A stretch of 64,000 nucleotides of DNA, from the NCBI RefSeq assembly GCF_036417845.1, contig NC_090020.1, positions 45,368,425 through 45,432,424 of the forward strand, written 5' to 3'. The first letter of the stretch is position 1, and each line of letters starts with the position of its first letter. Positions 42,101 to 62,760 of the stretch are shown in pieces. The position numbers and the translations under genes were made by a program. The notes beneath the pieces are model-generated. The model made no database searches. It was not told the DNA's origin and saw only the letters and a program-made list of their open reading frames with translations. This DNA is from Apteryx mantelli (lineage: Eukaryota > Chordata > Aves > Apterygiformes > Apterygidae).

Positions 42101-45100
42101 ATGAAAATCATTATCATGTTCAAAATTGAAGTTAACATTCTAAAAATTTGTAGTAATTCATACGCTGGTAATACTTTCTTTCCTTCTCCATCAACACAAG
42201 TGTAACTTACATCCATACTCTTCATACAAACAAAGTTTTTTCCAGAAAACAAATTTTAAGTTCAAAGTAATAGATACAAGCCTTTGCTTTGATTGGATTC
42301 AGAGTATCCATACAACATCTAGCGCAAATAAGTAAAACCCTCATCGATACATTTATGTTTTAAGCTGTATAAATGAAGAAAAGCCCAGAAAAGGAAACAG
42401 GAACAGGTAAGTAGTAATTTGCTTCTGTTTACACAGATCAGTCACTAAATTGAGAATCTTGGAACTTCAAATTCCCAGTACCCCAAATTCTGTCTCAGTT
42501 AAATATTTAACTCTCTTAAAAGACCTAATTTAGTAAACAATTAGTTAATAACTCAATGACAGTGCTACTTGTATTAACAAAAGTTAAAGAAACAGTAGGT
42601 AACAACTAAAATAAATTAGTTCACAAATAATGAATCTAACAGTATTTAAGAATTTTGAAAATCCAAGTATGTGAGTTATTTCCATTTTGATGTTATGAAT
42701 CAAATCAAAAGTACATCATACTGCATCTCCTTCATCAGCTGAGGAGATCAGCTTCTGGTCCTTTACAAAGTTAAACTTTAGCTGATGAATAGAGGTGAAT
42801 AAAAAATGTGTCTCAAACATTACACATCATGTTTTAGGCACCATCAAAAAATATTAATACATTTCTCTGCATACTGCTCACTGCATATGAACTTACATAT
42901 TAACATATCTTGAACTCAAGAACTGTTTTCATGCTGGTAAACCTAATCAAAGATCCCAGTAATTTCTCTGCAATATTTGTTTCCACACTCATATCACACC
43001 TCAAAATCAAGCCCTGAATGCCTAAATATGAAAGACAGCCTTTAATAGCCGTTCTGTTTCAAAAAGTTAGGTCCACTATTTGCAAACTGAACTACAAATG
43101 AACAGAGTAATTGAAATATGACTTTGAAAAGTGACTCAAAGAACAGAATTTGGGGATCAAAGTCAACCTCTATAACTAAGCTTTCCTTAGCTGACTAAGA
43201 TCTTCATCCCCCTAATTGCTGGTCCTCCAGCCTGGAACAATATGTATGCTAGAAGATTTGCACTCCCACACTGGAGTTTTTCCAGCCAAAAGCTGGTTAA
43301 ACTTAAAGATGTTTGAAATAAAATGCTCTTACTGGAAATGGGGGGGGGGGGGGGGGATTTATTTTGTAATCTCTTTGTAAGAGAAGAGTTTACCCTGTAA
43401 AATGCCATTTTAAACTGGCATTCTACAGCTCACGAAGGGCCACAGAATCCCAATAATCTCATCAGTACAGTATGGATTTTTAATCCACTAGTTTTTTGAG
43501 GGTTAAGAGATAACAATGAACACATGATGAGCTCTGTCATATATCTCAAAGATTACTTACCTGAAGCAAAGGCTGTAATGGGTGGAAGTGCCATTGTATC
43601 ATGCTGAAGACCCTTCCTTTTTGATTTCTTTTTGTTAATTGAACCTTAAGAAAAAAAAAAGCAAATAAGTATCTCAGGGCTAGATCTGAGAATATTGGTT
43701 TAAAATGGGCAATCCACTAAACAAAGTTCCTATTAAATTTAGAAGATTTTGGTTTACATTTTTTTTTGAAACTGACATATATTTTGAAACTATTATTACA
43801 TTTAACAGACACAGGATTACCTATAATTAAAAGTAAGCTTGTCACTACCCAATCCTCATTCCCTCTTTACAGGTGCTTCTAACTCAAGCTTCAAGTTATA
43901 ATTTACATTTTCAAAGAAACTTATGGAAATTTCTAAATAATAAATTCTAGCTTCTCCATGATGTGAGGTAGGTTTTTGAAACTTATCAGTAATATAAGGA
44001 GCAAGTGGATTGTTTTGGTGCCATGGATCTGCCTTTTATTTTTTTTTTTACAGAAAAACCTGAGAATACTCATATTTGTCATACTAAGGTATATAGTCAA
44101 TAGCTAACAGAGAGCGCACATCCTTCCCTGAAACGGAATCCACGATCTTCACTATCTAAACATCCCTTTATCTGATGGTAACTAACCAAAAACCTCTCTG
44201 GTGAAATATGTTCCAAGTCCCTGAATAGTAAAGAAAAGGATATTGTTTACTATTTTCGTTTAATTGACAAAAGTCTGTGTAAAAGATCCAAAGTCCGAGA
44301 TGATCCATCAGTGGAAACCATTAATCTCTACATTGACATAGCATTGTTATTTCCAAGGGTTTGAAGAGCTAAGAACAAACAGAGTTCCTGTCACACAATC
44401 CATGTGATGCTGAGCAAATCACTAGCCTGATATATTCACAGATGTACTACTCAACTCACTTTTTTCCAGGATCTGGTGCTGACATCCTGAGGCAGAGATG
44501 TCACCATCACAACTAAAGAGATGGTCATACAGGCATGACTACATAAAGCAATATATTAACACCCCTCTTTGATTACCAAAGACTCAGGAATTTGAAATTC
44601 AATGTCCAAAGTATATAAATGATGAATTAATCTACACCCGTCTATTTGAATCTATTGAAATACCCGGATATCCACATACATAGATATCTAAAAACAGAAG
44701 TTATCTTGGTCTTCCTGAACTGTATAAGAAAATGCCCCGTAACCATGGCAGTGCTTGGAATATGTGTTCTTTTTTTTTTTTTATTAAGCTTTATGATTAA
44801 ATCTAAGGAACTGAAGTCAAGAAATCTGAATTACTTGTGTTAATTTAGCCAGTTCAACAAAAGGGGAATGGGAAAAGAGTTAAAGTTCAGCATGTAAAAT
44901 GAACTAAAATGTCACCTACTGTTTTACACATTCTTAATACAAAAATCATACCCAGCTTCTTCTGCAGTAAAGTAATACATACTGTCAGGCTAGAGAAATT
45001 ACTTTGCTTAAGTATTTTAATCAGGCAAACATATCTGAGAGTGTACTTTATGCACATCAGGAATGTTTAAATTTTTTGAGCAGCTGAGGTGCATGGCTTT

Positions 45101-48100
45101 CATACAACAGTTTAAGCAAAAATAAGGCCTAATACTTTAGCACCCTTCTACATAAATACTTCTGCAATTTCTGTCACTGCTGTTTGTACTTTAACCAAAA
45201 TACTTACCACGTCCTAAACTTTTATTGAATCTTTCATGCACTGTTGAAAACGACTGCAATGTTCCATCTTGACCTGATGAAATATTAGAGAAGGGCAAAA
45301 ATCAACTTTTATATTATGCATAATCTATACAAGCAAGAAAAGCGGAAGATAAGCACTCAGAAACCACAAAAACTGTAATAAAGTATTTAATAAAAATTCT
45401 GATCCAAGGAGAAATGCAGGTATACCTTAAGCAGTGAAGCTAATGAAGCCTATATTTCTATGGCCTATATCCCATTCCCACTATTTTGCCCCATACAGAT
45501 GAAAATGACATTGCTCTCCTTTATTCATCTCCTAAAACACTCCAATTTCTCTATTGCCTGCTTTCTTCATTACAATATCCAGCTATTCCCAGCCTTCCAT
45601 CACCTTAAAGATACTGTTATGTCCTTCAAATCGCTTCATAGTATCTCCAAAGCTTTCCCATGACTCCATGACTTCCCCCTTACCAACTACAATACTCCTT
45701 TCCTCACCCCCTAACCTACACATGCTATGGCTGGTGAAGAGGCACACCTAGGCTAGCCAGCAAGTTAACCCAAACAGAAAAGGTGAAAGCTGAGTTCTCT
45801 ATCTTTCCTGTAAACCAGGACACTAATGGGACTTCCCTCCTCTACCCAACCACCAACGTTCACAGAACCTTAATAGAATTTAATTTACCAGAGGGACACA
45901 TGGCTCAAACTTGAAACTGGCAAAAAAGTCCAAAAGTTTTGTGGGGAAGGTGCAGGCAAAGTAGAATCAGAAACCAACAGACAATGTAATTGTGTAAACC
46001 TCATTCTCCCAGGGAAATCAAGCTAGGGAAAAAAAACTATACCAAAACACAGGCAAAACTAAAGGCACTGAGACAACTTTAAAAGGTCAGAAGAATCACA
46101 AAAGGTTATTATTAGACCAAACAAATAAGGAAAGAGGAAACAAATCAAAGTGAACTTAAAGAATCTGAAAGACAACAGAGCAATTACAGTATTCAAGCAA
46201 ATCTTTAACTCTGTATCATGGCAGGAGTAATGAAAAACCTGTGTAGGGCAGAAAAGATATATTCAGAGACAGGACACTGCAAGGAAAAAAGATTCTTTTG
46301 CATGCAACCAGGATGAATATGTTGGGAACTGGAAGCAGTGTTAAGTAGGTTGAAACCAGGGACATTGGTGAGATTTTTAAGTTTATTTGTCAGAAAGCCT
46401 GTTTTAGGGAGATCGGTAGTAGCACTTGAAAGGCCCCCCACAGCACTGCTACTCCAGGTCTTTTGCACAAAGTTTTACCACTGGTTCAGAAAGGAATGTA
46501 GAGAGTCCCCTTACACTGCAGATACATCAGATCTCAAAGCCTGAGACCCTTTTCACTTTAGAGCTTGCCTCTGTGCCCTCTCTTTTTTTCCAAGTACAGT
46601 TAACAAAACAGAAAACTGCAAAAGCAAGTGTGAGGATTTATTAAGTAATTCTGATTGCCACTATGGTTCATCTGGACTGAGTTAAGTTACTGACTTGGCC
46701 TTGACCAACAAGATGTTTTACTATGGATGGTGCTAGCATCGCTGTGTCATATTAGGTGCAACATTCCTTAAAAAAGTAGCATTATGTTTTTAAACATTGC
46801 CCAAGCAAATAATTTCTGTCAGAGTAACTAAACTGAAGAGTCTCTTACTCCATTTCTCCAGTTCTGAAGTGAGCCACAAAAAAAGTCTGAATGGGCACCT
46901 AATTTCCTAAAAGGGTCCATATGTAGATTTTAAAATGTTAGTTTCTAAGGAAGTTTAGTCACTTTTACAATTTTTACACTTTCAGAGTAACGTCTTACTA
47001 ACGAGTGATCTTGGGAAGACATATTCCAGCTATAACTGAGCTGTAACAAATTACAAAGCATTTGTAAGCCATAAAGCATGACCAAAATAGCAGGAAAACT
47101 GGAGTGGCTCCTGCAAGACACCAAATGCATTAGGCTCCCTCTTTCCCCCCCTCCACAAACAGAATTTCACTAATTGTTGAGGGTTTTCATTTGACCAGCT
47201 AATAGTTCCTTAGAAGATGATGAAGCAATTTTTATTTGCCAAACATGAGTATGGGCAGCAAAAGCAGCTCCTAAGCTTGTCCGTTTGTAACTACTTCTTG
47301 GCCTACATGCTGTTATGCATTCCCTTAGGGTAACTTAGGGCAACTGTGAAACAGTTCGATACAACAATAAACGACATTATCTATACTAATTACTTGCTAT
47401 GTTTCATAAATACATGTAATCCATAATACATGAAGTATAAATTATTACATGAACAAAACAAAAATCTTGAGCTCTGCATGTTTTCATCATTCTAGTAGAA
47501 AATCAGACTGAAGAACATGAATGAGAATTCATACCTGCACTAAGAATTTGCTCTCCATTTTGCCCATGGTATCTGATTTTTGTTGGAGGTGCACTATGCC
47601 CCATTCGGCTCCTCAATATACGACCAGTACCACCAGGTCCATCAAAAATCCACACCTGCCCCCAGAGAATGCAGAAAAATGAAGCTTGTAAACACTGCAG
47701 TGCCAATAATTACACCTCTTGGCAGTAGGGTAAGCTGGGAGCTGGCACAACAAACTCCACACATGGGCTGTTACTCTTGGCCCTAAAACTTTAGAGGTGC
47801 CAGAGCACCTGATTTTTCCCAGCTGTTTGTTCTGCCCCTCTACCCAAGGTTACTGGCATCAGAAAACACACAACACAATGGGCATTTCTCAGATGCAACA
47901 GTTAACAGCCCAGAACATTAACAAAAACTGAAGTAGATGGAAGACTGGAGTTAGTGCACCAGGCTATGAATTGCGGTTCTGGAAGAGTGGATCCAGAACT
48001 TAGTTCTTCAAGGCTACCATGTTCTCATCATGGCAGTAGACCCTTAAATTGCCTCACTAGGAATCAACAGAGACTGAGAGGCAGCAACTTCAGTAATCTG

Positions 48101-51100
48101 AGTTTTGTTTCATTTGAAAAATCACTGCTTCAATATAAATTAAACATTTATGCTTTGGAGGACCACAGGAGAAAAACAAACAAACAAACAATAGCAGGTA
48201 GCAGCAACTTACCCGTATAGCATTATCAGCACCATTAGTAATAAGAAGTGGCTCTCCAGGGACAAACGACATACCAGCGATTGCTGTCGAATGGGCATTT
48301 CGCATTTGACTAATTAGTTTCTTCTCTTCTAGATCCCACAGTGCAATGTGTCCAATGGTGCTACCAGCTGCCATTACTTGATGTCCATCTACTCACAAAA
48401 TAAAAACAAAAAAGTTTGTTTCTTAACATTCAGTACAACCTTATTGACTTCTTGCATCTTAAAACTGATGCAAGAAAATGATATACGTCACAATTCTGAA
48501 GAAAAAATTCATTCTCAAGCTAACTCTAAAGATATGTTTTTATCAAAATACTCTAGCGTTTCAAAACAGAAAAGAAACAAAGGTCACTGACAATAAGAAC
48601 AGGAAGTGTTCATATCAGATAACACCAGATACGTCTAAGTGCAGCATTCTGACACAACAGCCAAGGCTAGGAGTTTTGCTTGAAAGCACACAAAATCTTG
48701 ACCTATACCATTTTAAAAAGTTATTCTATATCCTGTGTTTTTCCCCAGACTTATTAGTCTTCATGCTTCAGAATATAAGAGCTACTGTAACACCACACTA
48801 GAGGCTAACACTCTTGTTTTTAATCCTGTTAAGTTTGTGGCTCAACAGCTTGCAAAAAAATTCCACAAGTTGATTACATGTTTATTGAATTGTTTTAAGT
48901 AATAATTAAAATTCACATTTCACAGGATTTCTAATCTTTGTTCTACTTGTTCTATCTTGTCTAATATTAAGAAGATTAACAGATCATACTAGCTTCTAGA
49001 AACACACTACAAATATTCAGGTAAGTTAGACAGAAATCACGTCAAGGTTAAAGTGTCATCTATTTCCCGTATAATTGGTAACTTATGTTTTAGATCTAAG
49101 AAAAGAAAAGGCCAGCTTCCAATTTACAATTACACACATCATGGAGAGCTAAAATAGACAGGCTTAGGGCTTTCTTCTTCTGTAATGCTTCACCAATACG
49201 GAAATTTGTCAATAGCTCATTTTAATTTTAATAAAGAGCACTTTACTCAAAGCCTGAAATGAGTACATGAATTCAAAAGAACTAAAATGATTCTTTTGAA
49301 CCAAGAATTTTTACATTATATTTCCCAGCTGTAAAGATAAGAAAAGAGAGAGAGATTGGAGGGAGCATGAGACTAATAAAAGAGTACCCAGGATCTGCAT
49401 GTTCAAGCAGATAATAGCAATTATTTAACTTTTTTGACATTTCAGGTTAAATGGTTGACACAAAAAGGCACCGTTTCTGCTTTTCACAAGTCTCCCCAGT
49501 TGCATCCCTCCTCAATACATCCTGCATCAATCTATATTCTGTTAAGATTTTAAAGTTAGCCTAGTTAAACGAGAGATGAGATTCAGGATCACAATGCTGT
49601 AGGCAGGATCAATATTAAAGTAATAGCTGAGTAAGTAGCGTTTGCTTATTACACAAAGAAGTTGTTATATATTCAGTGATTCCCAGTAACATCCATTCAG
49701 GAATAATCCAGCTATATAAGAGAAACCTGTATCTGTTAACATTCTGACTTGTTTTCGTTGGGAAGACACTACTGAGAAGTAAGCCTGGGTACCAACTTGC
49801 AGTGTACTGATTACTCTCCACTAACTCCAGTGGTGATAGTTCTCAGCACGCTAAAAATACAAACTGGCTCACTTCACTTTGAAAAAGGAGTATCGTACTT
49901 CATGCTTCCTATGCACTGTGAGCGTGTACACAAGAAAATGCTATAAAACAACAAGCATGATAAAGATGCACAAACTCTCTTACTTTTGGTAACTTCTCTA
50001 GATTATCTACAGCCTTTGAAAACTAAAACTCTTAACACTTACCCCAAACTTTGGTTCTGGAATGCTTTTACCAAAGCATTACCTTCTACTAATTTTATAA
50101 GCATTCTCAGTGAAAGTGCTAAGATTTACCTGTCCGAAATGATATTGCTGTGATGGGACCCCAGTCTTGTTGAAATTTCATCAGAGTTTCATCAAACTTA
50201 ATATTATGTACAATGATATGACCAGATACAAGACCTACAGCAACAACATCCACTGCTGGGGCCTGCAAGAAACATTGAATGGCAACTGAAATGAAAAACA
50301 AAAAGCTTGTGGCTACACTAGCAGTACTAGCAGGTACAAGACAATGCATCTAAGTCTAGGACAAGTAGTACAGAATTTGTTCAGAATAAACAAATAAGGC
50401 ATCCTGCAAGACATTACCTATCTGTATTACCTGACTGACCATTTGATAAATCTAAACAAAAAAATAGAGATATGCAAGATATTGCACTTACTCTTCATTG
50501 GATAAAACCATTCTGTTTTCAGAAGCCTGAAATTCTTGGAAAGACAGTTAAGTTTTCAGTATTTCTGGTGGACCATCATACACTCCTACCTCACATATTC
50601 ACACTTACAGGTTTTATCCAGGACAACTGCAGACCATTTTGAGCTGTCACCAATGTTTTAAATGCTACTAGTTAATTTTAATTCATTTTTATATTTACAA
50701 AAATATGGTAAATACAATTATAAAATCTCTTCTTGAATCAGCAAACCTATGTTTTCTAAATCTCCAAGGCAAAATAATTTTAGACAATAAGAAACTAGCA
50801 GTGTAACAAACATCACACATCATACACCCACATCTTGCAAACAGATTGTTTCTGTGAATTCATTAGGTCATTCAATGAATAAAGATTACAGAAGTAATGA
50901 ATACCACATGGCTAAGATGTTAAATATGATAGAACTGCTAGGACTAGAGGAAGGGCATATAATAAGCCTTCAAGTCTACCTCTTTTCAAAGTCTAAAAAG
51001 CTAGAGAGGGTTATTAACATGACTTGAAAGAATATAAGTAAACTTTATGGCTATAACGTTAAACAACAATATTTTGCCTGCTATTCTCAACCAGTTACAT

Positions 51101-54100
51101 AAGACAGTAAGATAACAAAAATACTGACTTGTTGAAGGGTTGTGACCCCTAAGCCCCATCCTGCAAATGAGTATAGGAGTTTACTGCAAAAACAAAACAA
51201 AAACAAAAATATCAGTTTACGTTTAGGAATTTTCCACATTAAATGGATGCTTTACACACACTTACACAGAAAGTAAGACAGATTTTTGTCCTCATATATT
51301 GGTTAAAGGGAAAAAAAATGACACTGCTAAATATGGTCAAGAATAAAATTTATGAGTAAGAATGTTTATATGAAAAAGTCAGTGCCATGCATTAATACTT
51401 TAAAGTTGACATAGTTACATAACATAAACAGGGAGAAAACTCATTCCAAGCCAGTTGCTCCCTATGCATTTCTCCTCCAAGCAGACCTCTTCAGAACTTT
51501 CACCACCCACACAATGAGCCGGTCTGGGTCCAACTTCTAATAAAAACAAATTCCTCATTTGCAGAGTAACTTCACAACACGAAGACACTAATTTGTGTTT
51601 CAAGCATACTCTTTCTTCTTTCTTTCAAAAATATAAGTGTTAACAGCCAACATGTGATGTAAGAATGTTCACAAAGTAGTCACATAATACTTTAGTTGCT
51701 TACTAAGGGTGTAAATATGAAAATGAGATTTAAGAACAGACGCGATTAAAAAACTATTCCATCAGCCACAGCTATAGGTTGCTATTCTTACAAGATGGAC
51801 AATAACAATCTGCTCCCACCTCTCTCTTTCCTTTCTTGCCACAGGTTATTGAATCTTCCTTCCAATTCTACCAGTTTAATTTTTTTTGGCTAATTGTGCC
51901 CACACTTATCTGTGAAACTATGTAGAGAAAAAACAATGGAGAACAGAAATTACTTAACCCAACTGTGCTGACAAAAGAGCAGCAACAGTGTCCTAAGTTC
52001 TTATTTAGTTAAGGGAGAATCTAAGCCACCTAAGGAAGATTTTTTAATGTCTTGGATGTATTGCATCTCAGATGTTGCTTTACTGGGACATGCTCAGAGA
52101 CAACCACACGTCTACACACCTCTTACTGAAGTCTAAGTATCAGATGCTAACTGCCTCCACAATACCTGCCACCACTTCTTTGGACCAGCACCAACTATAA
52201 AACCAAGCTTGGAAAAGAAAGACAGAAGGCCTGAACATGCATTTAGCATCATTCTAATTATTTTCATGGGAAAGCTATGTGATCCAAGAAATAAAAAAAT
52301 GTAACGTAATAAAAAAATTCCTGCATGATCCCTGACATTTTGCAAGGAGAGAAAAAACAACACACAACTTGAAAGAGATCAGCATTAAGGGTGCAGCAGC
52401 ATTCTTGTGTTCCTGGAGACAGACCAACTGAAAACTTCTGCCAAAGGACTCAGTAAAAGATTCCATGTTCAAAAACCACCATACTTAAAAATACCAGCTG
52501 TTGCATATGAAACTACTTGGAGCATGAAGTATATCCGAGTTATTAAGAATCTTACTTGGATTTTATATTCCACAGCTGCAAGCTCCCTTGTTCACTACCA
52601 AGGAGAATTTTATTCAAATAGGTGCTTGGATGCAGAATTGCAGAAACTGCAAAAATGGCCTTATCAAAATCCATTTGAAGATATTCCTCTGCAAAAAAGT
52701 AAGAAACAATGTTAGCACGGCTGCCTCTACAAATCTGCAGGCTCATCATCCCTTGACAAATGTAAAAGGCTGAACTGATGTTTACTCTGTATGAACCCCA
52801 TAACTGAGGTTTCTTACATGAAAGGATTAGCTAACGCATAACAGGACAGACTAAACTTGTTTACATTACAACATCTGTTGGCTTGAAGGTATATTTTTTT
52901 CCCCTATAAACCTATATACTGAGTGCAACAATGCTGGCAAAACTGTAATGATTTATATCTTTTTGAAGGATTCCTGTTCCTGCCTGAGCAAAACACCTCA
53001 TCTGATCAGCATACCTTTTGCCTGAAATAGCAACTTCAAATCACTAAAGCCAGTTTGCAGCCACTTAAAGAGCTAGCGTGCAGGGAATGACATGGGCCAA
53101 CATGACAGTCTGAGAATGCTTTCTAAAGAAAAGTTAGGCCACTGCAACAGGATTCCACAAGGCACTTTTCAATGGCACGAGAAGGTGCTGACACAACTGA
53201 AAGATTATTCATAGGAACTTAATCTTACCCAGACTGATAACAATCAAAGAATTATAGGGTTTTAGAGATGATGCCAAAGCTGCTGTTACACACTGTTTAC
53301 CAGAAAATGGAGCATTAATATGTAACTTCTGTAGGAGCAGACTTCTGTATGCCTATTTGGATCTTTATGGTGTCTCTACATGTGGTGCAGGACCCATGCA
53401 TGAAAAATTATTGCAGCATTAGAAATCCAAATTATTGTTTAAGTAACATTATTGTTTAAGGCTTTTTTAGAACAAACTAATTCCTAACATGCACATTAAA
53501 GAACCCTTCTTATATTACTGAATGTTTAACAATGTTATGTTATAGAGACATTAGACTTGTAACAGTAATAAAGTGTCTCACCTTCTGACTGTATATCCCA
53601 AACAATAAGAACATTAGTGGTATCCACAGAGATGACATGATCACCAAAAGGCAGTAGAAGGTGTATTTTTGCCTTGTGACCTTCATAGGTATGAACTACC
53701 TAGAATTTCAAAATAGACATTTTTTCAATATAATCTGTTCAGGCAGCATACCATGTTAGCCTACCGCTTGAGGATTGCCAATACACACTTTAAAAATAAG
53801 TTTAAATAAAACATAGGGAAAGATGACACCCCTTTAAGAAAAAGATATGTTATTTTCTTTGTTAATAAAAAGTGTTGGCAAGTTACTTTAATTAATACAT
53901 AAAACACAGGTCAGCCATTACAGAATTTGTTCTTACATTTTCCTATTGTAAGCTTTTATTGCTCCTTCTGCAGAACACAGTTTTGTTTTCCTAAAATTGA
54001 AGGTATAAAACATCCATGCAAATGTAAGTGTGTAGAAAATAAATTGTCTAGAAAACAAACACTACCCAACTGTTTCATACTACCAAGTAACAAGTTAAAA

Positions 54101-57100
54101 TGATAAAAACCTCTTTGTTCCTGGCAAAAGCATGGAGAACATTGTCATATGAAGCAAATACCAGCATCCGATCTGCTGCCAAACAAGTAATATCTTGTAA
54201 CAAAGCATTACCTGTTAATGAAAAGACACAAAAGTTCAACAAGTTTCAGGTTCATAGCAAAAAAGAAAGTCCATCTATGTATTTCTTTAGCATGGTAACC
54301 TATCAAAAAAACTGTTCTGTTGAATATGTTCTTAAAGAAATGCATACATTTTAGAAGAACACAAGCAACAACACATTGATAAATCACATTGTAGTTCTTT
54401 TTTTGAAAAACACTTAATAATAATTAACACTGTAAGTAAAGGCAAATATTAATTTTCCAAAGGTTTATAAGGAAGTTATCCCAAAATAACACTTTTAAGG
54501 ACTCTCACAGCCCCATGGCCCACTGGATTGGAAACACAGATGATAAACACAGAATTAGCAATGCCTATCAGGTTACGCCATTCTACAAACCTCGAAGGTA
54601 CTGCCACACTCCTACATCTGTTTCTTTCTGAGGACAGCAAATGTGATAAGGAACTTACTACTTTAAGAATAAATATAATTTCCCAACTAGTGACTGATTC
54701 AGAAAGTAAATCTACTACTGCAATCAGCTACTGAACTAGCTCAAGTGGTAAAAAAGTATGTTACAGATCCAAGCTCCACCACACTGAGAAGCTGATACTG
54801 TTCCATGTGATAGAAACCTGGAAGAATACTCCTACATCTAGGAAAGTATAAGAATAAAAAGCACAGCACTTAAAGATTGTCTGAAAAATACCAGACCAAG
54901 AATCATCTGTGTAACCTTAACTCAGTCACCATGGGAGTACAGCAAACCTATATGATCACACAGTATGCCCCCCAGTATTGTTTTATACTATGAATTATCT
55001 GATGCAAAGAATCCTATAGTCTTTGCTGTACTGCAGCACAACTTCAAGGGGAAGAACTAAACAAAATAAGCAAAGCTGCACTTTTTGAGAAGTTTCATTT
55101 GTTTATACATGTTAGATATCTTCTGATAACACCTCTGAAGGGACTTATGCCTAAAATCGGAGTACAGAAATCCGGTACTCCACATAAGTGGTATGCAAGT
55201 CTGCTCAGGCCAAGACAGTTATAGACAAGCCCAGAGTAAATCAGAGCACCAATCACATAACATCACTAAACCAATAACATCACATAGAGAAGCACATAAT
55301 TTATTTTTTCAATCATGATTTTGTATTTAAATGTCTCAATTCTTCAAAAGGCTTAAGATTTCACAGAGTATGCAACATTTTTATGATTTTGTATGTTCAA
55401 AACAGAACGTCCATTAATTTCTTTACAGCAGTAAGTATTCACTATTGTACTTCTAAATCTAGTCCCAGTTGCGTAACAGTGATTATTCTCAAGTTTCTGG
55501 GTGCTCAGTTACCAAAAATATATATATTTTTATGAGATCTGTGTAAGAACTTTGTGGTATACAGAAGTAAAATCCTACTTTTCAAGGCAGCATTCACCTC
55601 ACAGAATCATATGAATGTTGGCTGGAAGGGACCTTTGGAAGTCATCTAGTTCAGCATTACACCCATCATGTCCCAAAAAGCAGGATCATTCCCAGTACTA
55701 AATAAGGCTAGCTGTAGCTGCATTCAGGTGAGTGTTGAAAACCTCCGACAACGGAGGTCTCACAATCTCTACATTGTACTGCAGTTCCCTCTTAGCGAAG
55801 GTATTTCTCCTAACTTTCATTCTGACTCCCCGAAGCCACAATCTGCGGCTGTTGTCCCTTGTTACACTATCTGCCACTATCACCACAAATTCAGCTCTGC
55901 CGTCCTTGTAACTGCCCTTCAAGTAGTTGTAGGCTGCTTCCAGTTTTCTCTTCGCAAGACTAAACAAATCAACTTATTTCAATCTCTCCTCTAGGCCACG
56001 TGCTGTAGGCTCCTGATCCTCTCCAGCTTCTCAACATCCTTCCTGAACGGGGAGGGAGGCACAAACTGGATACAGCAGTCCAGGTGCAGCCTTACTCATG
56101 CTAAACAGAGGGGAGTAACAGCTTTCCCTGATCGGCTGGCCATTCTCCTCCTAACACAGCTCAGTACATGGCTTGCCTTATTCATTACAACTGCACTGCT
56201 GGCTCACGTTCAGTCTGGCACTGCCATAACCCCAGCTCCTTTTCAGCAGGGCTGTGGCTCAGTCCCCAGCTTGTTCTGTCCCAGGTGCAGAATTCTGCGC
56301 TTGTCTTGCTGAACTTCCTGAGGTTTCTGTTGGCCCAGTCATAAAGTTTTGCAACATCTCCCTGGATTGAAGCTCTGCCATTGCGCATGTCAGCTACTCC
56401 TCCTAACATAGTGTTGTCTGCAAATTTTTGCCAAGAGTATGTTCTGTCTCATGATCTAGGTTGCTGATGAAGGTACTGAACAATACGGGCTCTACTATTG
56501 ATATGTAGGGTGCTATGCTTGCTGCCAACCGGATGCCAAGCCACTGATTCCTATTCTTTGTACCCAGCAGTCCAGCCAATTTTTAACCCTCCTCAAAGTC
56601 CTTTGAGACTTTCACTTTCCTCTTATTACACAGACTTCCAATAAATGTAATAACAAAAAAGATATCTGGAAATAACAGCTTTATTCACTGACTGTTCCTA
56701 AAAACCTAGGGTTTTTTTGTTTGTTTTCTTTTTAAGGAGAACAGGATGAAAAAAAAATGTAAGGTTCACAAGGTATACCCCTAAGAGAACTAAGTTACAG
56801 TTGTAAAGAAAATCTTATTTCCAAAGTGAGTGCCTGGTATTTCATTCTAAGACTCCTTTTATCATACTTCAGTGTAAATATTTATACATACAATTCATTT
56901 TCCATTTTTAAATTCAGAATTAGCTGCAGACTATCGATTTGTTAAAAAAAAAAAAAGATGGACAATCTGCACATACTTACTCACAGCAACAATACCAAGT
57001 TTATTTACCTGCAACAAAAAATTGAAAAGGCATTTTTAGTTGTTTGTTGCACTGAATTTGCTATAAATAATAATTCAAATTCTAGGAATCAGCCCAGATG

Positions 57101-58263
57101 ACATAAGGAATTTGCATCCCTCACCAGGAACAAAAAATATTTACCTTAGTTCGGAACAGTATCTATAAAAGAACCTGTGGATAGCAGGTCAAAAGGAAAG
57201 GGACAATACATTTGCAGAAAGACAAGCATTCAGCACCAGTGAGCTGTGCTTCTCAATAAACTTTACCTTGATGCACGTGACCCTAAGCACACATTTATAG
57301 AGGTTTTGCAGAGCTTGGGCAAATTTGTTTTCACATAATCTCTGCTCCTATGCTATTCCCACTACCACCACATTATGTTATTATCTTCAGTCAGTTCACA
57401 TAGAATTTGCTTCAATGGCACTTCACCAAATTACATGTCATCCTTGCCCAGAAATGATCATTACTAAATTAATTCAAATTCTATAGAGGAGGACTTAACC
57501 CTGAAAAGCTGTCATCAAGATATATAAAGATCTGTGTTGCCCACCCTTTGCTGTTCAATATAATCACTTGATTTAGCTCTATTTTGTTATTCTGGTTCTA
57601 TAGCTTGAGGATGCTTTTAGCATATAGAAAAAGAGTGAGTTAATATCATAGGTCTTCATCTCGCAAAACTGATTTACGCTCACGTGCTCTTTACACGAGA
57701 AGCTCTAACACCGTCTAACGACTTCCCAGCAAAAGAAGAGCGCGCTTCTGCGGAGCTCAAGCTCTGAACCGCAGCCGTTCGCGAAGCAGGTGCGCGGCGG
57801 TTTGCCAGCAGCGCAGGGAAAACGCCTCTGCCCGCCGAACGGGCCGCAGCGCGACCCAAGGGGCGCGCACAAACCCGCGGGGCCTCACTGCGCGGCTCCG
57901 CCGGCCGCGGCTCCCTCGCCGCGCCCCGGCGAGGCGGCTCCGCCGGCCCCGCGGTCCCTCCCCAGCTCTCCCGGCTCTCCGGCCAGGCCCGGGCGGCCCG
58001 ACCCCCCCCCCCCCCCGCGGGGCGCCGCCGCCCGGCAGCGACCCGCAGGCCCCGGCGGGAGGCTCGGAAGGGCCCGGGGGAGACGACACGCGGCCGGGCC
58101 GCCCCTGACGACTGACGTTGTAGGTGTGGACGCTCCGTCCGGCGGCCGCGGTCACGTAGAACTGGCGGTGGCGGCCGTGGTAGCGCAGCGCGTGCGGGAC
58201 GGGGCCCGAGTAACGGCCGAGCGCGCGGAAGCCCGCGAACAGGCCGCCGCTCTCGCACGCCAT
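24004..58263 (-). CDS. WDR36: WDR36 (UTP21), U3 snoRNP/UTP-B WD-repeat protein; 23 coding exons
   Basis: Nucleolar scaffold of the UTP-B subcomplex of the small-subunit processome, needed for early pre-rRNA cleavages leading to 18S rRNA. Human variants have been linked to open-angle glaucoma (GLC1G). The 23 exons listed below join in frame through GT-AG introns to 2,673 nt including the stop, giving 890 residues. From memory, human WDR36 is 951 residues with an extended start, about 895 from its internal start. Tandem WD repeats cover roughly residues 30-340 and 390-640 (visible blades: LIVWDI, LQLWNI, IALWDL, IKFWKF, IKTWDL; GH motifs YEGHKA and FSGHHG). The C-terminal Utp21 domain covers about 660-885 ([27 protein letters not shown]). 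The start ATG (58,261-58,263) has A at -3 and G at +4. No frameshift or premature stop was found, so the gene appears intact. TSLP lies just upstream on the same strand, as in mammals. Confidence 0.97.
25612..25630. repeat. Poly-T run, 19 bases
   Basis: Homopolymer in WDR36 intron 22; it reads as poly-A in the transcript. No retroposed sequence is visible next to it. Confidence 0.85.
25814..26001 (-). CDS. WDR36: WDR36 exon 22
   Basis: 188 nt, completing a split Tyr codon, then residues to about 841. It encodes the core of the Utp21 domain: [18 protein letters not shown], then [12 protein letters not shown] and [13 protein letters not shown], nearly as in human. Acceptor tag/AT, donor AAG/gtaatg. 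Intron 21 (26,002-28,281, 2,280 bp) upstream contains a locally GC-richer patch at 26,990-27,390 with an open frame I do not believe is coding. Confidence 0.96.
28282..28363 (-). CDS. WDR36: WDR36 exon 21
   Basis: 82 nt, residues about 752-778. Encodes [15 protein letters not shown], identical to the human stretch, then a variable LEEALSTNE tail. Acceptor ctag/TCA, donor T/gtaagt (phase 1). Intron 20 upstream is only 207 bp. Confidence 0.96.
28571..28687 (-). CDS. WDR36: WDR36 exon 20
   Basis: 117 nt, 39 codons. Basic [13 protein letters not shown] followed by [16 protein letters not shown], the conserved extended segment opening the C-terminal Utp21 domain. Acceptor aacag, donor CAG/gtaaaa, phase 0 on both sides. 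Intron 19 (28,688-29,335, 648 bp) shows nothing notable. Confidence 0.96.
29336..29478 (-). CDS. WDR36: WDR36 exon 19
   Basis: 143 nt, residues about 665-712. An acidic, poorly conserved linker ([12 protein letters not shown]) is followed by highly conserved IEYDSPEQL and [16 protein letters not shown]. Acceptor gaaag/AT, donor AAG/gtaatg. Upstream intron 18 (29,479-31,799, 2,321 bp) carries the long CR1 copy. Confidence 0.95.
30513..31676 (-). mobile_element. CR1 LINE, 5'-truncated, with partial RT reading frame
   Basis: About 1.16 kb in WDR36 intron 18, in the sense orientation of WDR36. The plus strand starts with tcacagaatcacagaatggt, the antisense CR1 tail, and ends near acaacacccactgctcaaag. 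The minus-strand frame at 30,909-31,454 is open for 181 codons and carries the reverse transcriptase catalytic block (FADDTKLGG) followed by EKDLGVLVD and [11 protein letters not shown], all typical CR1 ORF2 features. The endonuclease and most of RT are missing, so it cannot move by itself. The long open frame suggests a fairly young copy compared with those at 18.2 and 55.6 kb. No target duplication is evident. The truncated 5' end lies about 125 bp from exon 18. Confidence 0.95.
31800..31897 (-). CDS. WDR36: WDR36 exon 18
   Basis: 98 nt, residues about 632-664. Completes a split Trp codon and encodes [18 protein letters not shown], then [11 protein letters not shown], the link from the last WD blade to the Utp21 domain. 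Acceptor ttcag/G, donor G/gtaatc (phase 1). Upstream intron 17 (31,898-33,062, 1,165 bp) is AT-rich and featureless. Confidence 0.96.
33063..33170 (-). CDS. WDR36: WDR36 exon 17
   Basis: 108 nt, residues about 596-631. Encodes [20 protein letters not shown], then [16 protein letters not shown], the final WD blade ending in the LGIYLW motif. Acceptor cttag/C, donor TG/gtgagt. Intron 16 upstream (33,171-37,069) is the largest, 3,899 bp; only AT-rich unique-looking DNA is seen in it. Confidence 0.96.
37070..37149 (-). CDS. WDR36: WDR36 exon 16
   Basis: 80 nt, residues about 570-595. Encodes [20 protein letters not shown] and then WDLPSG, a textbook WD blade with the terminal T-W-D. Acceptor tatag/ACT, donor TG/gtgagt (phase 2). 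Intron 15 upstream (37,150-37,969, 820 bp) contains a 21-base G homopolymer. Confidence 0.97.
37419..37439. repeat. Poly-G run, 21 bases
   Basis: Uninterrupted G tract on the plus strand in WDR36 intron 15; the transcript carries C. Such runs can form quadruplexes on the G strand, and their length is often unreliable in assemblies. Confidence 0.9.
37970..38078 (-). CDS. WDR36: WDR36 exon 15
   Basis: 109 nt, residues about 533-569. Encodes [20 protein letters not shown], then [16 protein letters not shown], with a GH motif opening the next blade. Acceptor ggcag/T, donor ATG/gtaatg. Intron 14 upstream is 266 bp. Confidence 0.97.
38345..38510 (-). CDS. WDR36: WDR36 exon 14
   Basis: 166 nt, residues about 478-532. 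Encodes [20 protein letters not shown], then [16 protein letters not shown], a complete WD blade, followed by a Ser-rich turn and LLHRD. Acceptor tgtag/CA, donor AG/gtaaga (phase 2). Intron 13 upstream (38,511-39,316) is 806 bp and featureless. Confidence 0.97.
39317..39431 (-). CDS. WDR36: WDR36 exon 13
   Basis: 115 nt, residues about 440-477. Encodes [20 protein letters not shown], then [18 protein letters not shown], a blade nearly identical to human. Acceptor gaaag/GCA, donor G/gtaaga. Intron 12 upstream (39,432-40,608, 1,177 bp) includes an 18-base A run at 40,226-40,243. Confidence 0.96.
40226..40243. repeat. Poly-A run, 18 bases
   Basis: Homopolymer in WDR36 intron 12, with no associated retroposed copy visible. 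Confidence 0.8.
40609..40763 (-). CDS. WDR36: WDR36 exon 12
   Basis: 155 nt, residues about 388-439. Encodes [20 protein letters not shown], then [15 protein letters not shown] and a fast-evolving basic tail before LDIYAT. It lies near the start of the second propeller. Acceptor tgcag/AA, donor ACG/gtaagt. Intron 11 upstream (40,764-43,560, 2,797 bp) holds a 17-base G run. Confidence 0.95.
43340..43356. repeat. Poly-G run, 17 bases
   Basis: Uninterrupted G tract on the plus strand in WDR36 intron 11, about 200 bp from exon 11. Confidence 0.9.
43561..43644 (-). CDS. WDR36: WDR36 exon 11
   Basis: 84 nt, residues about 360-387. Encodes the Lys-rich inter-propeller linker [13 protein letters not shown], then [11 protein letters not shown]. 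It could act as a nucleolar/nuclear localisation patch (inference). Acceptor ttaag/GT, donor G/gtaagt. Intron 10 upstream (43,645-45,207, 1,563 bp) is featureless. Confidence 0.94.
45208..45273 (-). CDS. WDR36: WDR36 exon 10
   Basis: 66 nt, residues about 338-359. Encodes [20 protein letters not shown], close to human. Acceptor atcag/GT, donor G/gtaagt. Intron 9 upstream (45,274-47,534, 2,261 bp) shows no clear repeat. Confidence 0.95.
47535..47655 (-). CDS. WDR36: WDR36 exon 9
   Basis: 121 nt, residues about 298-337. Encodes [20 protein letters not shown], then [18 protein letters not shown]. Acceptor ggcag/GTG, donor G/gtatga (phase 1). Intron 8 upstream (47,656-48,212) is 557 bp. Confidence 0.96.
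48213..48388 (-). CDS. WDR36: WDR36 exon 8
   Basis: 176 nt, residues about 239-297. Two blade parts: [20 protein letters not shown], and [20 protein letters not shown] followed by TNGADNAIR. Acceptor gtag/AT, donor CGG/gtaagt. Intron 7 upstream (48,389-50,129, 1,741 bp) is featureless. Confidence 0.97.
50130..50262 (-). CDS. WDR36: WDR36 exon 7
   Basis: 133 nt, residues about 195-238. Encodes [20 protein letters not shown], then [20 protein letters not shown], nearly identical to human. Acceptor tgcag/GCC, donor G/gtaaat. Intron 6 upstream (50,263-51,128) is 866 bp. Confidence 0.97.
51129..51183 (-). CDS. WDR36: WDR36 exon 6
   Basis: 55 nt, residues about 176-194, short. Encodes [18 protein letters not shown] after a split Asn codon. 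Acceptor tgcag/T, donor CAA/gtcagt. Recognised only by homology and phase continuity. Intron 5 upstream is 51,184-52,555 (1,372 bp). Confidence 0.93.
52556..52688 (-). CDS. WDR36: WDR36 exon 5
   Basis: 133 nt, residues about 132-175. Encodes [20 protein letters not shown], then [20 protein letters not shown], a strongly conserved blade. Acceptor tgcag/AG, donor AA/gtaaga (phase 2). Intron 4 upstream (52,689-53,581) is 893 bp. Confidence 0.97.
53582..53699 (-). CDS. WDR36: WDR36 exon 4
   Basis: 118 nt, residues about 93-131. Encodes [20 protein letters not shown], then [16 protein letters not shown], a WD blade with GH and WD. Acceptor tctag/GTA, donor G/gtgaga (phase 1). Intron 3 upstream is 53,700-54,110 (411 bp). 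Confidence 0.96.
54111..54211 (-). CDS. WDR36: WDR36 exon 3
   Basis: 101 nt, residues about 59-92. Encodes [20 protein letters not shown], then [13 protein letters not shown]. Acceptor aacag/GT is good. The donor GAG/gtttttatc is weak at +3 to +5, but homology places the boundary there. A downstream gtagta would add nine hydrophobic residues in frame. Intron 2 upstream (54,212-56,980, 2,769 bp) contains an old CR1 copy. Confidence 0.92.
55598..56600 (-). mobile_element. Old CR1 LINE fragment with decayed ORF2
   Basis: In WDR36 intron 2, sense orientation. The plus strand opens with ctcacagaatcatatgaatg, then the CR1 tail (ctggaagggacctttggaag, tcatctagttc). Farther on, the minus strand at 56,185-56,409 encodes an RT remnant with [26 protein letters not shown] and AEKELGLW, equivalent to the intact [21 protein letters not shown] and AEKDLGVL of the 30.5-kb copy. 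Many substitutions and breaks show that it is an older insertion. The right boundary is approximate. Confidence 0.9.
56981..57008 (-). CDS. WDR36: WDR36 exon 2 (28-nt microexon)
   Basis: Only 28 nt: VNKLGIVAV plus one base of a Ser codon, matching human VQKLSLVAVS. Acceptor ttgcag/GTA and a near-consensus donor A/gtaagt. Too short for any ORF caller, but needed to keep the frame between exons 1 and 3. Intron 1 upstream (57,009-58,116, 1,108 bp) goes from AT-rich to very GC-rich and includes a 15-base C run at 58,002-58,016. Confidence 0.93.
58117..58263 (-). CDS. WDR36: WDR36 exon 1 (start codon)
   Basis: 147 nt, residues 1-49, beginning [20 protein letters not shown] and ending VHTYN before donor gtcagt. 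It matches human [17 protein letters not shown]. The ATG sits in gagg-ATG-GC, a good Kozak context. The frame stays open upstream for about 100 codons and downstream into intron 1 because the DNA is very GC-rich, so I chose this start by homology and context. The exon lies inside the CpG island. Confidence 0.95.
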
Positions 58264-58314: not shown

Positions 58315-59116
58315 CGCCGCGGCGGAAGGCGCCGTGCGCCGGCGGAAGCGCTCCCCCCGACCCGCGCGGGCAAGCGTCCGGAGTTCCGGCGCCGCGGCGG
58401 GACGGGACGGGGGGGCCCCGGCGGTGGCAGCGAAGCGGTCACCGACGCGGCCCCGCAGCCGAAGCGGGGCGGGGGAGAAGATCGAGCAGTTCCGCCGCCC
58501 TCCTCGTGCCGCCTTGCGCTGAGAGGAGGGGGACGTGTGGTGGGAGCCGCTGCCGAGCGTTTCAAATGCAAACAGCAAGCACAGGCTGGGTAAAACAAAC
58601 GTTTAGTGTCCGCGCCGGTGCGTCGGTGCGTTGCAGCCTGCAAGCTGGAGAAGTCGCGTCCTTACCAGAAGTGACACAAAGCCTCTGCTCAGTGCGGTGC
58701 CCTCTTGCTCAGAGGCGGCACGGCGTCGCCGCCCGCAGAGAGGCCCGTTTCCGTGCTAGCCACCCGGGGGCCGGGAGCGGCTCCGGGCGTGCCCGGCCGC
58801 GGCCCCTGCCCCGGGCGCGCTCTGCCCGCGGGCGCTGCCCGCGCTGCGGCCGCGGTTTCAGGGGAAACCGCCGCCAGCTGAGCCGAAACAAATCCCAGGG
58901 CATGCACAAAACGTACTCTGAAGCCGATTAAAATGTCTGCAAATAGCTCTCAAAGCCACAAAAATTTGTACAAACCTCTACCCCTGTTTCAAGATTCGCA
59001 GCTAAGGTGCTTGACTCTGCTACTGACACCGCAAAAGCTCTGCTCGAAGGAGCGGCTATTCAGCAGCACCGACACGGGCAGTACTGCCAGGGATGTCATC
59101 CAGCGTCTAAATCTCT

Positions 59117-59122
59117 TTTATT
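59117..59122 (-). terminator. TSLP: Candidate TSLP polyadenylation signal
   Basis: AATAAA on the minus strand (plus tttatt), about 350 bases after the proposed TSLP stop and before the WDR36 CpG island. It is the most reasonable 3' end signal between the genes; no transcript evidence is available. Confidence 0.4.
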
Positions 59123-59467
59123 GCCGCCTTTTTATTCTGCCTTTCTCACCTCCCCGCCAGGGTTTCTTACGCTTGTTATCTTGTTTTCACTTCCGCTGGG
59201 CCCTTTCCGGCCCATTGCAAGACGCACTCCTATTCTCCATCTTATACGTACATAAACAATGCTGCAAACTGTTTAATGAAACGGCTTTTAATTAATACAA
59301 TCATACATTGTGTCTTTAAGGCATTTTAAGCACTTGTGCAAACAGTGTGTACCCGGAAAGTTTTCCTTTAATAAATTAAAAAAAGACCTGCAAGATGATC
59401 TATTACAACGATCGCATAGTGGGCAATAAATATTTCGTAAAGTCCGGTGGGAAAAAACACCCAGTCT

Positions 59468-59590
59468 CTATCCTAGATTCATGTAGCTTCTCCATATGGC
59501 CATGAGCTCCTGAACTTTGCTCTCGTCGCACAGTCCCCTGCCCGGGGTGGTGCTCGGGGGGGTCCCCCGGGGCTCGCCGTCCTGCCAGTC
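59468..59590 (-). CDS. TSLP: TSLP exon 5 (stop TAG)
   Basis: 123 nt: DWQDGEPRGTPPSTTPGRGL, then CDESKVQELMAIWRSYMNLG and TAG. A strong acceptor (gctgactgctgtgcaccctcag) and phase 0 match the mammalian last exon. It holds the sixth cysteine and helix D with its conserved Trp. The loop lacks the KKRRKRK-type basic cluster of human TSLP. Intron 4 upstream is 115 bp (59,591-59,705), highly GC-rich. Confidence 0.88.
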   Translation of the reverse strand, partial: DWQDGEPRGTPPSTTPGRGLCDESKVQELMAIWRSYMNLG

Positions 59591-61367
59591 CTGAGGGTGC
59601 ACAGCAGTCAGCGCCCCGCGGACCGACACCGCCGCCCGCGGGGCTGCGCGGCGGCGCGGCGGCGGCGCGGCGGCGGCTCTGCGCGCCCGCCCCGCGCACA
59701 CCTACCTGCGGCGGGTGGTAGCCGTGGCAGTTGTTGCGCAGCACGCGCAGGGTGCCGCGCCACAGCGCGCCGTGCCGCGTCCCGCCGCAGCCCCGCGTCC
59801 CGTTGAGGACGCACTCCAGGAGCCGGCCCGCCCGCTGCCGGTCCTGCGGGGGGGGACGCGCCGCTCAGCCGCCCCCGCCGCCCCCCGCGGCGAGGGAAAG
59901 GAGCGGGGACCCCCCGGCCCCGACCCTCCCCGCGCGGGCGCCGCGGCTTTGCCCCCCCCCCGCGCTTCTAGGAAAAAAAAAAGTTTCCTTCTTTCCCCCC
60001 TTTCCCCCCCTTTTCCCCATTTGTCCCTTTTTTATTTTCCGATTTTCCCTCCTTTTCCCATTTCCCTCCTTTTAACCGTTTCCCCCTCCTCCCCTTTTCC
60101 CATTTCCTCCTCTTTTCCCCCGTCCTCTTTTTACCATTTCCCGTTTCCCCCCTTTCCTCCCCTTTTCCCTTTTCCTCCCCTTTTCCCCTTTTCTCCCCTT
60201 TTCCACCTTTCCTCCATTTTCCCCGTTCCCCCCCCGTTTTCCCCATTTCCCCGCTTTTTCCTCTTTCCCTCCTTTTTCCATTTTCACCTTTTCCCGCGTT
60301 TCCCCCTTTTTTCCATTTCCCCCCTTTTCCACTTGCCCTTTCCCCCCTTTCCCCCCGGTCCCCCGCCGCCGCCCCACATCTCTTTGCTCTTTTCTCGCAG
60401 CGGAAGGGAAGGCCACCTAGCCGTCGCGGGGGTCGGTCACCCGGGCGAACCTCGGACTGCTGCGGGCCCGCTGGCGGCGGGGGCGCCTCGTCGCACGTGT
60501 GAAAATCGAGCTGTAGCTCCTGGGGGGAGACAACGAGAGGGGCCGCCCGTCACCCCGCGGCGGCGGCGCGGGCGGCACGTCGGGGGGCCGCTCCGATGCG
60601 GGGGCTTTCCGTGCGCGGGGCCCGCGCTCCGGCGCGGTGTTTGCGCGGCGCCTGCCAGGAGCCGAGCCGGAGGCACAGGCGCTCCGTGCGCGCCGCCGAA
60701 AGCTGCAGCCTGTACTAAACCCTGGGGGTGCGGCCGCGGCGCTTCTGAACCGCTTATCACCTTTGCAACTGGGAAATCGTCTTCGGCGGCGGCGACTCCC
60801 GGTGCTACCGATTTGCGGGGGCAGTGAAGGCAGCAGCGCTCGGACGGGAGCCTCCCCCGGCCCCTGCTCCGTCCCTGCAACTTGCGGCTTCAGCTCACAT
60901 TTTAGGAAGGTCGCCGGAGCACAGTAGGAGATAATTTCCCCGTCCTGTCCACATGCACCAGTTTACTAAACTATCCAGCTCCCGGCTTGCTAATCGAGAT
61001 TTTCAGAAAGTGGCTGCCGGCAGTCAAGGATAAAATCGTGGAGGCAGTGCTGTCCCGACAGATTCACGCTGATGCCACCAGAGAAACCACCAACCTCATT
61101 TAAGGTCATGTGTGAATCCAAAACGTTTAGGAGAGCCTCTCGTATCTTGTCGTGGTTACAGAGGCTGAAATTGTAGGTGGACTCCCGAGATAAGTCGGCG
61201 ATCTGAAGAAAGATGATCAAGCCACAAAAGACTGCGTAAGAAAAAGCCAAAGGTTAATTCTCCTGCACCGCTACGTGACCCGACAAGGCACGAAGGACAG
61301 ATCTGGAGAGAGGGATGCTGGTGCTTCGGCAGCACTAGAAAAACTGGTTACCCTTGTGATTATCCAT
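59468..61367 (-). CDS. TSLP: TSLP-like cytokine (thymic stromal lymphopoietin), five coding exons
   Basis: Predicted secreted IL-7-family cytokine that in mammals signals through the CRLF2/IL7R receptor. Exons 61,352-61,367, 61,095-61,231, 60,451-60,519, 59,706-59,843 and 59,468-59,590 join in frame to 160 residues (human 159, from memory). A hydrophobic signal (VFCGLIIFLQIA) leads to YNFSLCNHDKIREALLNVL, paralleling human YDFTNCDFEKIKAAYLSTI. Six cysteines follow the human order: SLC, HTC, LEC, RGC, NNC, GLC. Between the fourth and fifth there are exactly 19 residues, then a GY and seven residues to a phase-0 intron, as in human. The tail LCDESKVQELMAIWRSYMN mirrors KCLEQVSQLQGLWRRFN. The gene lies directly upstream of WDR36 on the same strand, the mammalian order. 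Very GC-rich. Exon 1 and the two weak donors are the uncertain parts. Confidence 0.85.
59706..59843 (-). CDS. TSLP: TSLP exon 4
   Basis: 138 nt, 46 codons, both sides phase 0. Begins DRQRAGRLLECVLNGTRGC, continues GGTRHGALWRGTLRVLRNNC and ends HGYHPPQ. The C-x19-C spacing and the GY before the exon end match human CASLAKEM..AIWCPGYSETQ. An N-glycosylation sequon NGT is present. There is no methionine in the exon. Acceptor ccccgcag/GAC, donor CAG/gtaggt. Confidence 0.9.
59984..60356. repeat. Polypyrimidine/polypurine tract in TSLP intron 3
   Basis: About 370 bases composed almost only of C and T runs on the plus strand (ttttcccc-type units of irregular length), so the TSLP sense strand is polypurine GGGGAAAA. 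It fills most of the 607-bp intron 59,844-60,450. It is capable of triplex (H-DNA) or quadruplex structures and is likely to be poorly sequenced in many assemblies. Confidence 0.95.
60451..60519 (-). CDS. TSLP: TSLP exon 3 (probable)
   Basis: 69 nt: ELQLDFHTCDEAPPPPAGPQ, then QSE. Acceptor gtctccccccag/GAG is strong. It supplies the otherwise missing second cysteine in a context like human STEFNNTVSC. The donor GAG/gttcgc is weak but is the only phase-compatible GT nearby. The Pro/Gly-rich end makes the second-to-third cysteine spacing longer than in human. Confidence 0.68.
61095..61231 (-). CDS. TSLP: TSLP exon 2
   Basis: 137 nt. Completes a Val codon, then FCGLIIFLQIADLSREST, YNFSLCNHDKIREALLNVLD and SHMTLNE. 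Contains the hydrophobic signal core, the sequon NFS and the first cysteine. An excellent acceptor (cctttggctttttcttacgcag) shows it is an internal exon; there is no ATG in this frame before it and a TAA stands 12-14 nt upstream of the acceptor tract. The donor is ambiguous: GAG/gttggt at 61,094 or AGC/gtgaat at 61,067, which would add nine residues. Confidence 0.85.
61352..61367 (-). CDS. TSLP: TSLP exon 1, proposed 16-nt coding start
   Basis: ATG GAT AAT CAC AAG G/gtaacc: MDNHK plus one base, which joins the TC of exon 2 to make Val and a coherent signal peptide (MDNHKVFCGLIIFLQIA). The ATG sits in acc-ATG-G, a good Kozak context. Intron 1 would be only 120 bp (61,232-61,351). A more distant first exon cannot be excluded. 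Confidence 0.5.
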
Positions 61368-61899: not shown

Positions 61900-62760
61900 T
61901 CTTTTTTTTTCTTCGAAGGGGAGCGCTTTCCTTTCCAAACCACCTTCCCTGGGAAGACCCCTCGTGTGCTCGGGCAGCGGGAGCGCAGCCGGGGGTACTG
62001 CCGAGTAAGGGGGGCACAACCGAGCACGCAGGGGAGCCCTGCTGCCAGGGGGGTGCCCCAGGGTGCCGGGGGGAAGCTGCCCTGCGTACCGGGGGAGGCT
62101 AGCGAGCGGGGCCGCAGCCCCGACGGGGCAGCCCGGGCACCGCCGCGCCGTGGGCAGCGCCCCGCCGCCCCCCTCGCCCTGGCGGCCCCTCCAACGGCCC
62201 CGCTCCGGCCCCTGCATCAAACCCTCCGGAGCCCCCCGGGTGCCCATCGGCCCACGGCGGTGTTTCGTCGAAGCGCCCCGGGAACCGCTTCGGGAGCCGC
62301 CGAGGGGGGAGCGAGGGGCCGAGCCCACCCCCGCCGAGGGCATCGCCTCGGAGGTTTTAAATCCGGCCTTATCTCGGTTTCAGAGAAAGTTCCTGTGCAT
62401 TTTCGGGGAATGATTCTCACGCGTGAGTCATGAGGGAAACCCAGGAGGACAGCCGCCTCCGCGGGAGGAAAGGCTTGTGTTTTTTGTTTTGTTAATTTTT
62501 TTGGCCAATTGAGCTGGGAACGGGCCGAGACAGATTAGCCAACACTGCGTGCGTGCCTGCCTGAGTGGGTTTTTTTTCCCCCCTCTCCTTCCCTCCCTCC
62601 CCTTCCTCCCGCGGCCGCGCTGGTCCTGCCTCCCGCCCCACCTGGCCCCGGCGGGGCGGCCCCGACCGGCCCCCGGCGCAGCCCGCGGCACCTCGCTGCA
62701 AACCGGCGCCTTTTCCGCCGTCGAGAGCTCGGAATCGCTGGTTTAAAGTATGGCATCAGC
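61900..62760. promoter_or_regulatory. GC-rich block upstream of TSLP
   Basis: CpG-rich sequence 0.5-1.4 kb upstream of the proposed TSLP start, ending in CCAAT-bearing (ttggccaatt, about 62,501-62,510) and CT-rich DNA. It could be a distal TSLP promoter, an enhancer, or the promoter of an unseen transcript. Open frames on both strands here look like GC artefacts. Confidence 0.45.
62424..62430. promoter_or_regulatory. AP-1 consensus TGAGTCA
   Basis: Perfect TGAGTCA in gcgTGAGTCAtgag, about 1.06 kb upstream of the proposed TSLP start. Mammalian TSLP is induced through NF-kB and AP-1 elements, which makes the site suggestive, but a 7-mer can occur by chance. Confidence 0.35.

Follow-up and report, generated by a model that had tools for sequence, protein, structure and literature searches.

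A candidate TSLP ortholog beside WDR36 in the bird Apteryx mantelli

Gene model and neighbours

The DNA analysed here is a stretch of 64 kb from Apteryx mantelli (NC_090020.1), called the window below, and all positions are coordinates within it unless a contig is given. That the genome is avian shows in its 150 matches to feather keratin, of which the best has 92% identity. On the minus strand of the window, upstream of WDR36, lies a candidate gene of five exons (61367-59468) which, when the exons listed here are spliced, reads in frame as 160 amino acids plus a stop:

Candidate exon 1, 61352..61367, minus strand: GACACCATGG around the start codon; 16 bases of coding sequence, then a phase 1 donor; tentative
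Exon 2, 61095..61231, minus strand: signal-peptide core VFCGLIIFLQI and helix A (TYNFSLCNHDKIREALLNVL); rank 1 with the TSLP profile
Candidate exon 3, 60451..60519, minus strand: AB-loop exon holding the second mature cysteine; tentative
Exon 4, 59706..59843, minus strand: helices B and C, cysteines 3-5, LNGTRGC...NNCHGY; strong donor
Exon 5, 59468..59590, minus strand: last cysteine, helix D (KVQELMAIWRSYMNLG), stop codon
Probable 3' UTR, 59108..59467, minus strand: ATTTA at 59431, 59376 and 59112, AATAAA at 59136 and 59122, all being motif matches only
Intron tract, 59990..60370, no strand assigned: 381 bases, plus strand 92% pyrimidine, degenerate CCCCTTTT repeat
WDR36, 29267..58263, minus strand: start codon at 58263; the gene runs on below 29267
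SLC25A46, C44:45,505,085-45,491,992, minus strand: about 62 kb upstream of the candidate, same strand

The initial annotation had described five GC-rich mini-exons assembling into a 160-residue open reading frame. The assembly was borne out: the exons join in frame, GT and AG border all four introns, and the junctions 59,590/59,706 and 59,843/60,451 have the sequence borders given there. The GC-richness applies to exons 3, 4 and 5 (71, 78 and 63% GC, respectively) but not to exons 1 and 2 (37.5 and 44.5%).

Support differs among the exons, being strong for exon 2, good for exons 4 and 5 and provisional for exons 1 and 3. Exon 1 was placed by its splice signals and not by homology, and is tentative, while exon 3 has an acceptor at the 99.8th percentile and a weak donor. 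Donor scores are 0.77, 1.01 and -1.13 bits for exons 1, 2 and 3, respectively, against 6.12 bits for exon 4. Two other donors in the frame of exon 3, located downstream at 60441 and 60378, were rejected since they leave phase 1, which is incompatible with exon 4. Skipping of exon 3 preserves the frame, so an isoform without this exon is possible. The start of exon 5 is left open, as it may be either 59590 or, through an alternative acceptor, 59581, three codons later.

The predicted protein carries a hydrophobic core (VFCGLIIFLQI, mean hydropathy 2.68), with a predicted start codon that depends on the tentative exon 1, and two N-glycosylation sequons (N26 and N88). Its cysteines lie at residues 8 (in the signal stretch), 30, 60, 85, 93, 113 and 141. 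The six mature cysteines follow the order of TSLP, as had been claimed, and cysteines 1, 4, 5 and 6 line up with those of mammalian TSLP. Their spacing agrees with human TSLP only in part: C4-C5 is 20 residues in both the model and human TSLP and C5-C6 is 28 versus 27, whereas C2-C3 is 25 in the model and 6 in human TSLP, and C3-C4 is 8 and 15, respectively. Taken with the start context and with the ATTTA and AATAAA motifs, the hydrophobic core and the two sequons would suit a cytokine that is secreted and whose mRNA is unstable, a fit that falls short of proof.

Several elements surround the coding sequence. The pyrimidine tract sits in the third intron, between exons 3 and 4; it is a likely obstacle to sequencing and may lead to poor recovery of this region from short-read assemblies. 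A GC-rich stretch (61990-62700), some 0.6-1.3 kb upstream of the start codon, has an AP-1 consensus at 62424 and is possibly a promoter or an enhancer; AP-1 and kB motifs were counted upstream of the candidate, and nothing firm follows from them. Elsewhere in the window, minus-strand reading frames (30912-31523 and 56188-56448) resemble fragments of the reverse transcriptase of CR1-type retrotransposons.

In mammals, the gene of TSLP, an epithelial alarm cytokine of skin and gut, stands between SLC25A46 and WDR36. In Apteryx mantelli, WDR36 starts 1.2 kb downstream of the stop of the candidate, on the same strand, and its reading frames yield 338 residues that match the human WDR36 chain 7mq8_LT (E 4.3e-142). 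The search for SLC25A46 returned nine stretches, eight of them in the gene listed above and one stray inside the window (E 0.29). All three genes are read from the minus strand, SLC25A46 coming first, then the candidate and then WDR36, and the candidate occupies the position of mammalian TSLP, as the initial annotation had stated. It is also single copy: the genome gives 18 matches to the model, and the only four that pass E 0.01 all come from this locus.

Similarity to mammalian TSLP and tests of chance

As references for mammalian TSLP we take the human entries 5J11-5J13, the mouse entries 4NN5-4NN7 and the Pfam family PF15216. Profile searches, which had been suggested as a check, spoke for TSLP: in hhalign, human and mouse TSLP together matched the model with P 8.4e-6 (probability 83%, 128 columns, 25% identity), and 0 of 300 shuffled models did as well. 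Exons 3-5 alone gave P 0.0046, again with 0 of 300 shuffles as good, and the single sequences of mouse and human TSLP gave P 3.6e-5 and 0.0012, respectively. The value for human TSLP speaks against the TSLP reading in so far as human TSLP against human IL-7 gave one that is little worse (0.003). In Pfam, TSLP was the sole family listed for the model, at 13 bits (E 0.1), which misses the curated cut-off of 27 bits; five single-frame pieces had no Pfam match, and the Pfam TSLP family found none in the whole genome, nor in 14 control genomes. With phmmer against the PDB, mouse TSLP aligned over model residues 25-158 (E 0.5), behind the top match, an unrelated cytochrome subunit (E 0.019). A three-way alignment with human and mouse TSLP has 22 invariant columns, including mature cysteines 1, 4, 5 and 6 and the tryptophan of helix D; the model is identical to human TSLP at 32 of 141 aligned positions (23%) and to mouse TSLP at 35 of 138, compared with 60 of 138 between human and mouse. 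The similarity to mammalian TSLP exceeds chance, though it lies below the curated Pfam cut-off.

These comparisons bear on the idea that some other short-chain cytokine, IL-7 for instance, has moved next to WDR36. IL-7 is a four-helix cytokine using IL7R alpha; it has its fold and a receptor chain in common with TSLP, and the bird candidate would fall into the same class. However, human IL-7 has no detectable similarity to the model (9 columns with P 0.29 in hhalign, whereas mouse TSLP gave 3.6e-5), and the site is the one that TSLP occupies, the IL-7 gene having another chromosomal place in mammals. We consider such a relocation very improbable. A query of the bird genome with human IL-7 returned no IL7 match, an empty result that proves nothing.

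Since the exons had been picked by a reader with TSLP in mind, we chose tests that do not presuppose them. The human and mouse TSLP profile was divided by mammalian exon and its segments were scanned, without introns, over both strands of the 64 kb. Exon 2 ranked first with the helix A segment (score 50, next 30.5) and exon 4 first with the helix B/C segment (35, next 30), while exon 5 ranked only twelfth with the helix D segment and the AB-loop segment missed exon 3. We then permuted the profile columns 150 times and scanned 6.3 kb around the locus on both strands: the score of exon 2 was equalled by none of the permuted profiles, that of exon 4, in the absence of exon borders, by 16 and that of helix D in exon 5, which is not significant alone, by 78. 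Taken singly and without exon borders, exon 2 alone is strong.

In a second test, candidate exons with acceptable borders and lengths were listed between exon 2 and WDR36, giving 59 internal and 33 terminal ones. The best helix B/C match among the 59 is exactly 59843-59706, whose score 3 of 500 permuted profiles attained. The initial annotation had also claimed a C-terminal helix of the TSLP type: the top two helix D matches among the 33 are indeed exon 5 from 59581 (6.0) and from 59590 (4.5), but a bordered terminal exon alone is not significant, as 85 of 500 permuted profiles match the 59581 version. The best compatible pair joins exon 4 to exon 5 from 59581, with a score of 29.5 that 0 of 500 permuted profiles reached (maximum 28.5); with the 59590 start the pair scores 28.0 (23.5 + 4.5), just below that maximum. 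The pair of exons 4 and 5 is therefore found unguided, though its lead over the highest-scoring permutation is small. Spliced alignment with an uncut TSLP profile failed to link the exons, which is why the scans by exon and the exon listing were used: its best match stopped at exon 2 (50.0), and at the lowest intron cost the top match ended at 57003 (56.0).

Could a reader primed for TSLP have chosen fitting exons in noncoding, GC-rich DNA? None of the three minus-strand frames is interrupted in exon 4, so that an open frame is uninformative there, and exon 3 and the lone helix D do no better than random. Against this stand the unguided scans, the permutations and the shuffles, together with neighbours that are those expected for TSLP, and a chance assembly appears to us hardly credible.

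Receptor genes and state of the gene

CRLF2 and IL7R are the receptor chains of mammalian TSLP, and both genes are present in this genome. CRLF2 is represented by four ordered matches with E < 0.01 at C1:77444326-77450627 (loci L017 and L018) and by a weaker transmembrane match (E 1.7); against the PDB, the pieces of its ectodomain match CRLF2 with E 6.1e-29 and gamma-c with 1.9e-8. Some 63 kb away, at C1:77513949-77519977, lie two CSF2RA-like matches (E 6e-6 and 0.003), the former with a stop within the aligned stretch. For IL7R, five of eight matches cluster at C44:73.807-73.817 Mb, four of those with E < 0.001. Contig C44 carries DM-domain matches near 7.9 Mb, the candidate at 45.4 Mb and IL7R near 73.8 Mb, so that the candidate and IL7R are probably both Z-linked.

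The receptors also matter for the idea of a decayed gene, by which the ancestral TSLP stood here and the copy in this bird is a pseudogene or a barely expressed relic. The weak donors of exons 1-3, the very short exon 1 and the displacement of cysteines 2 and 3 would be in line with decay. On the other hand, 160 codons run without stop or frameshift, 22 columns are invariant with human and mouse TSLP, and the CRLF2 and IL7R genes both persist; we regard decay as unlikely. The locus is, very probably, a single-copy, intact and probably Z-linked avian TSLP ortholog. The TSLP reading of the initial annotation is supported, since sequence, place and receptors agree independently. The analysis itself established the anatomy of the gene and its similarity to mammalian TSLP, its neighbours, and both receptor genes in the same genome.

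As an ortholog, the candidate would be transcribed, the probable sites being those of mammals, barrier epithelium and thymic stroma. The signal peptide of its product would be cleaved, and the mature protein may fold as a short-chain four-helix cytokine with three disulfides. It would be expected to bind CRLF2 and IL7R alpha and, by analogy with TSLP in mammals, to signal via JAK1/JAK2 and STAT5. It is likely, with somewhat less confidence than for the ortholog itself, that birds have a functional TSLP-CRLF2-IL7R axis, and that TSLP predates the mammal-reptile split and, in birds, is Z-linked and carries a rearranged AB-region disulfide.

TSLP beyond mammals

The candidate resembles mammalian TSLP in several respects: (i) it neighbours WDR36 and SLC25A46 in the position and orientation of its mammalian counterpart; (ii) it contains the motifs TYxFxxC, NxxxGC, CxGY and WxxF/Y; (iii) its C4-C5 spacing is that of the human protein; and (iv) the receptor genes are found in the bird genome. 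In contrast, it is only 23% identical to human TSLP, its cysteines 2 and 3 are displaced, and it has a proline run in the AB loop. Such a gene would be easily overlooked, given its identity of about one quarter to mammalian TSLP, its small exons and the location of three of them in GC-rich DNA by the pyrimidine tract.

A similar divergence problem is met in marsupials: according to the relevant passage of one report, the TSLP gene of the tammar wallaby was identified with an HMM profile, its transcript being unseen (PMC3173455). In contrast to the bird candidate, that gene is mammalian. A passage of a 2021 survey has TSLP first appearing with monotremes and CRLF2 with ray-finned fish (PMC8226699), and passages of other papers describe TSLP as unfound in fish (PMC7658486, PMC4690019) or, for zebrafish, as unfound where a CRLF2-like gene is present (PMC9138301). 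Of the chicken literature, the portion of a review on Ascaridia that mentions TSLP does so in a figure legend, where no gene is named (PMC10540146), and the relevant parts of an RNA-seq paper on the chick thymus mention it in the introduction, for mammals, and in the references (PMC6501151). Searches of the open-licence literature of PubMed Central turned up no bird TSLP, and an automatic NCBI or Ensembl label in some bird is possible.

If the reading as TSLP is true, this cytokine would be at least as old as the ancestor that mammals share with birds, and the CRLF2 of birds would gain a ligand. Epithelial type 2 immunity would then become testable in poultry, and another seemingly missing avian cytokine would turn out to have merely diverged and to be partly GC-rich.
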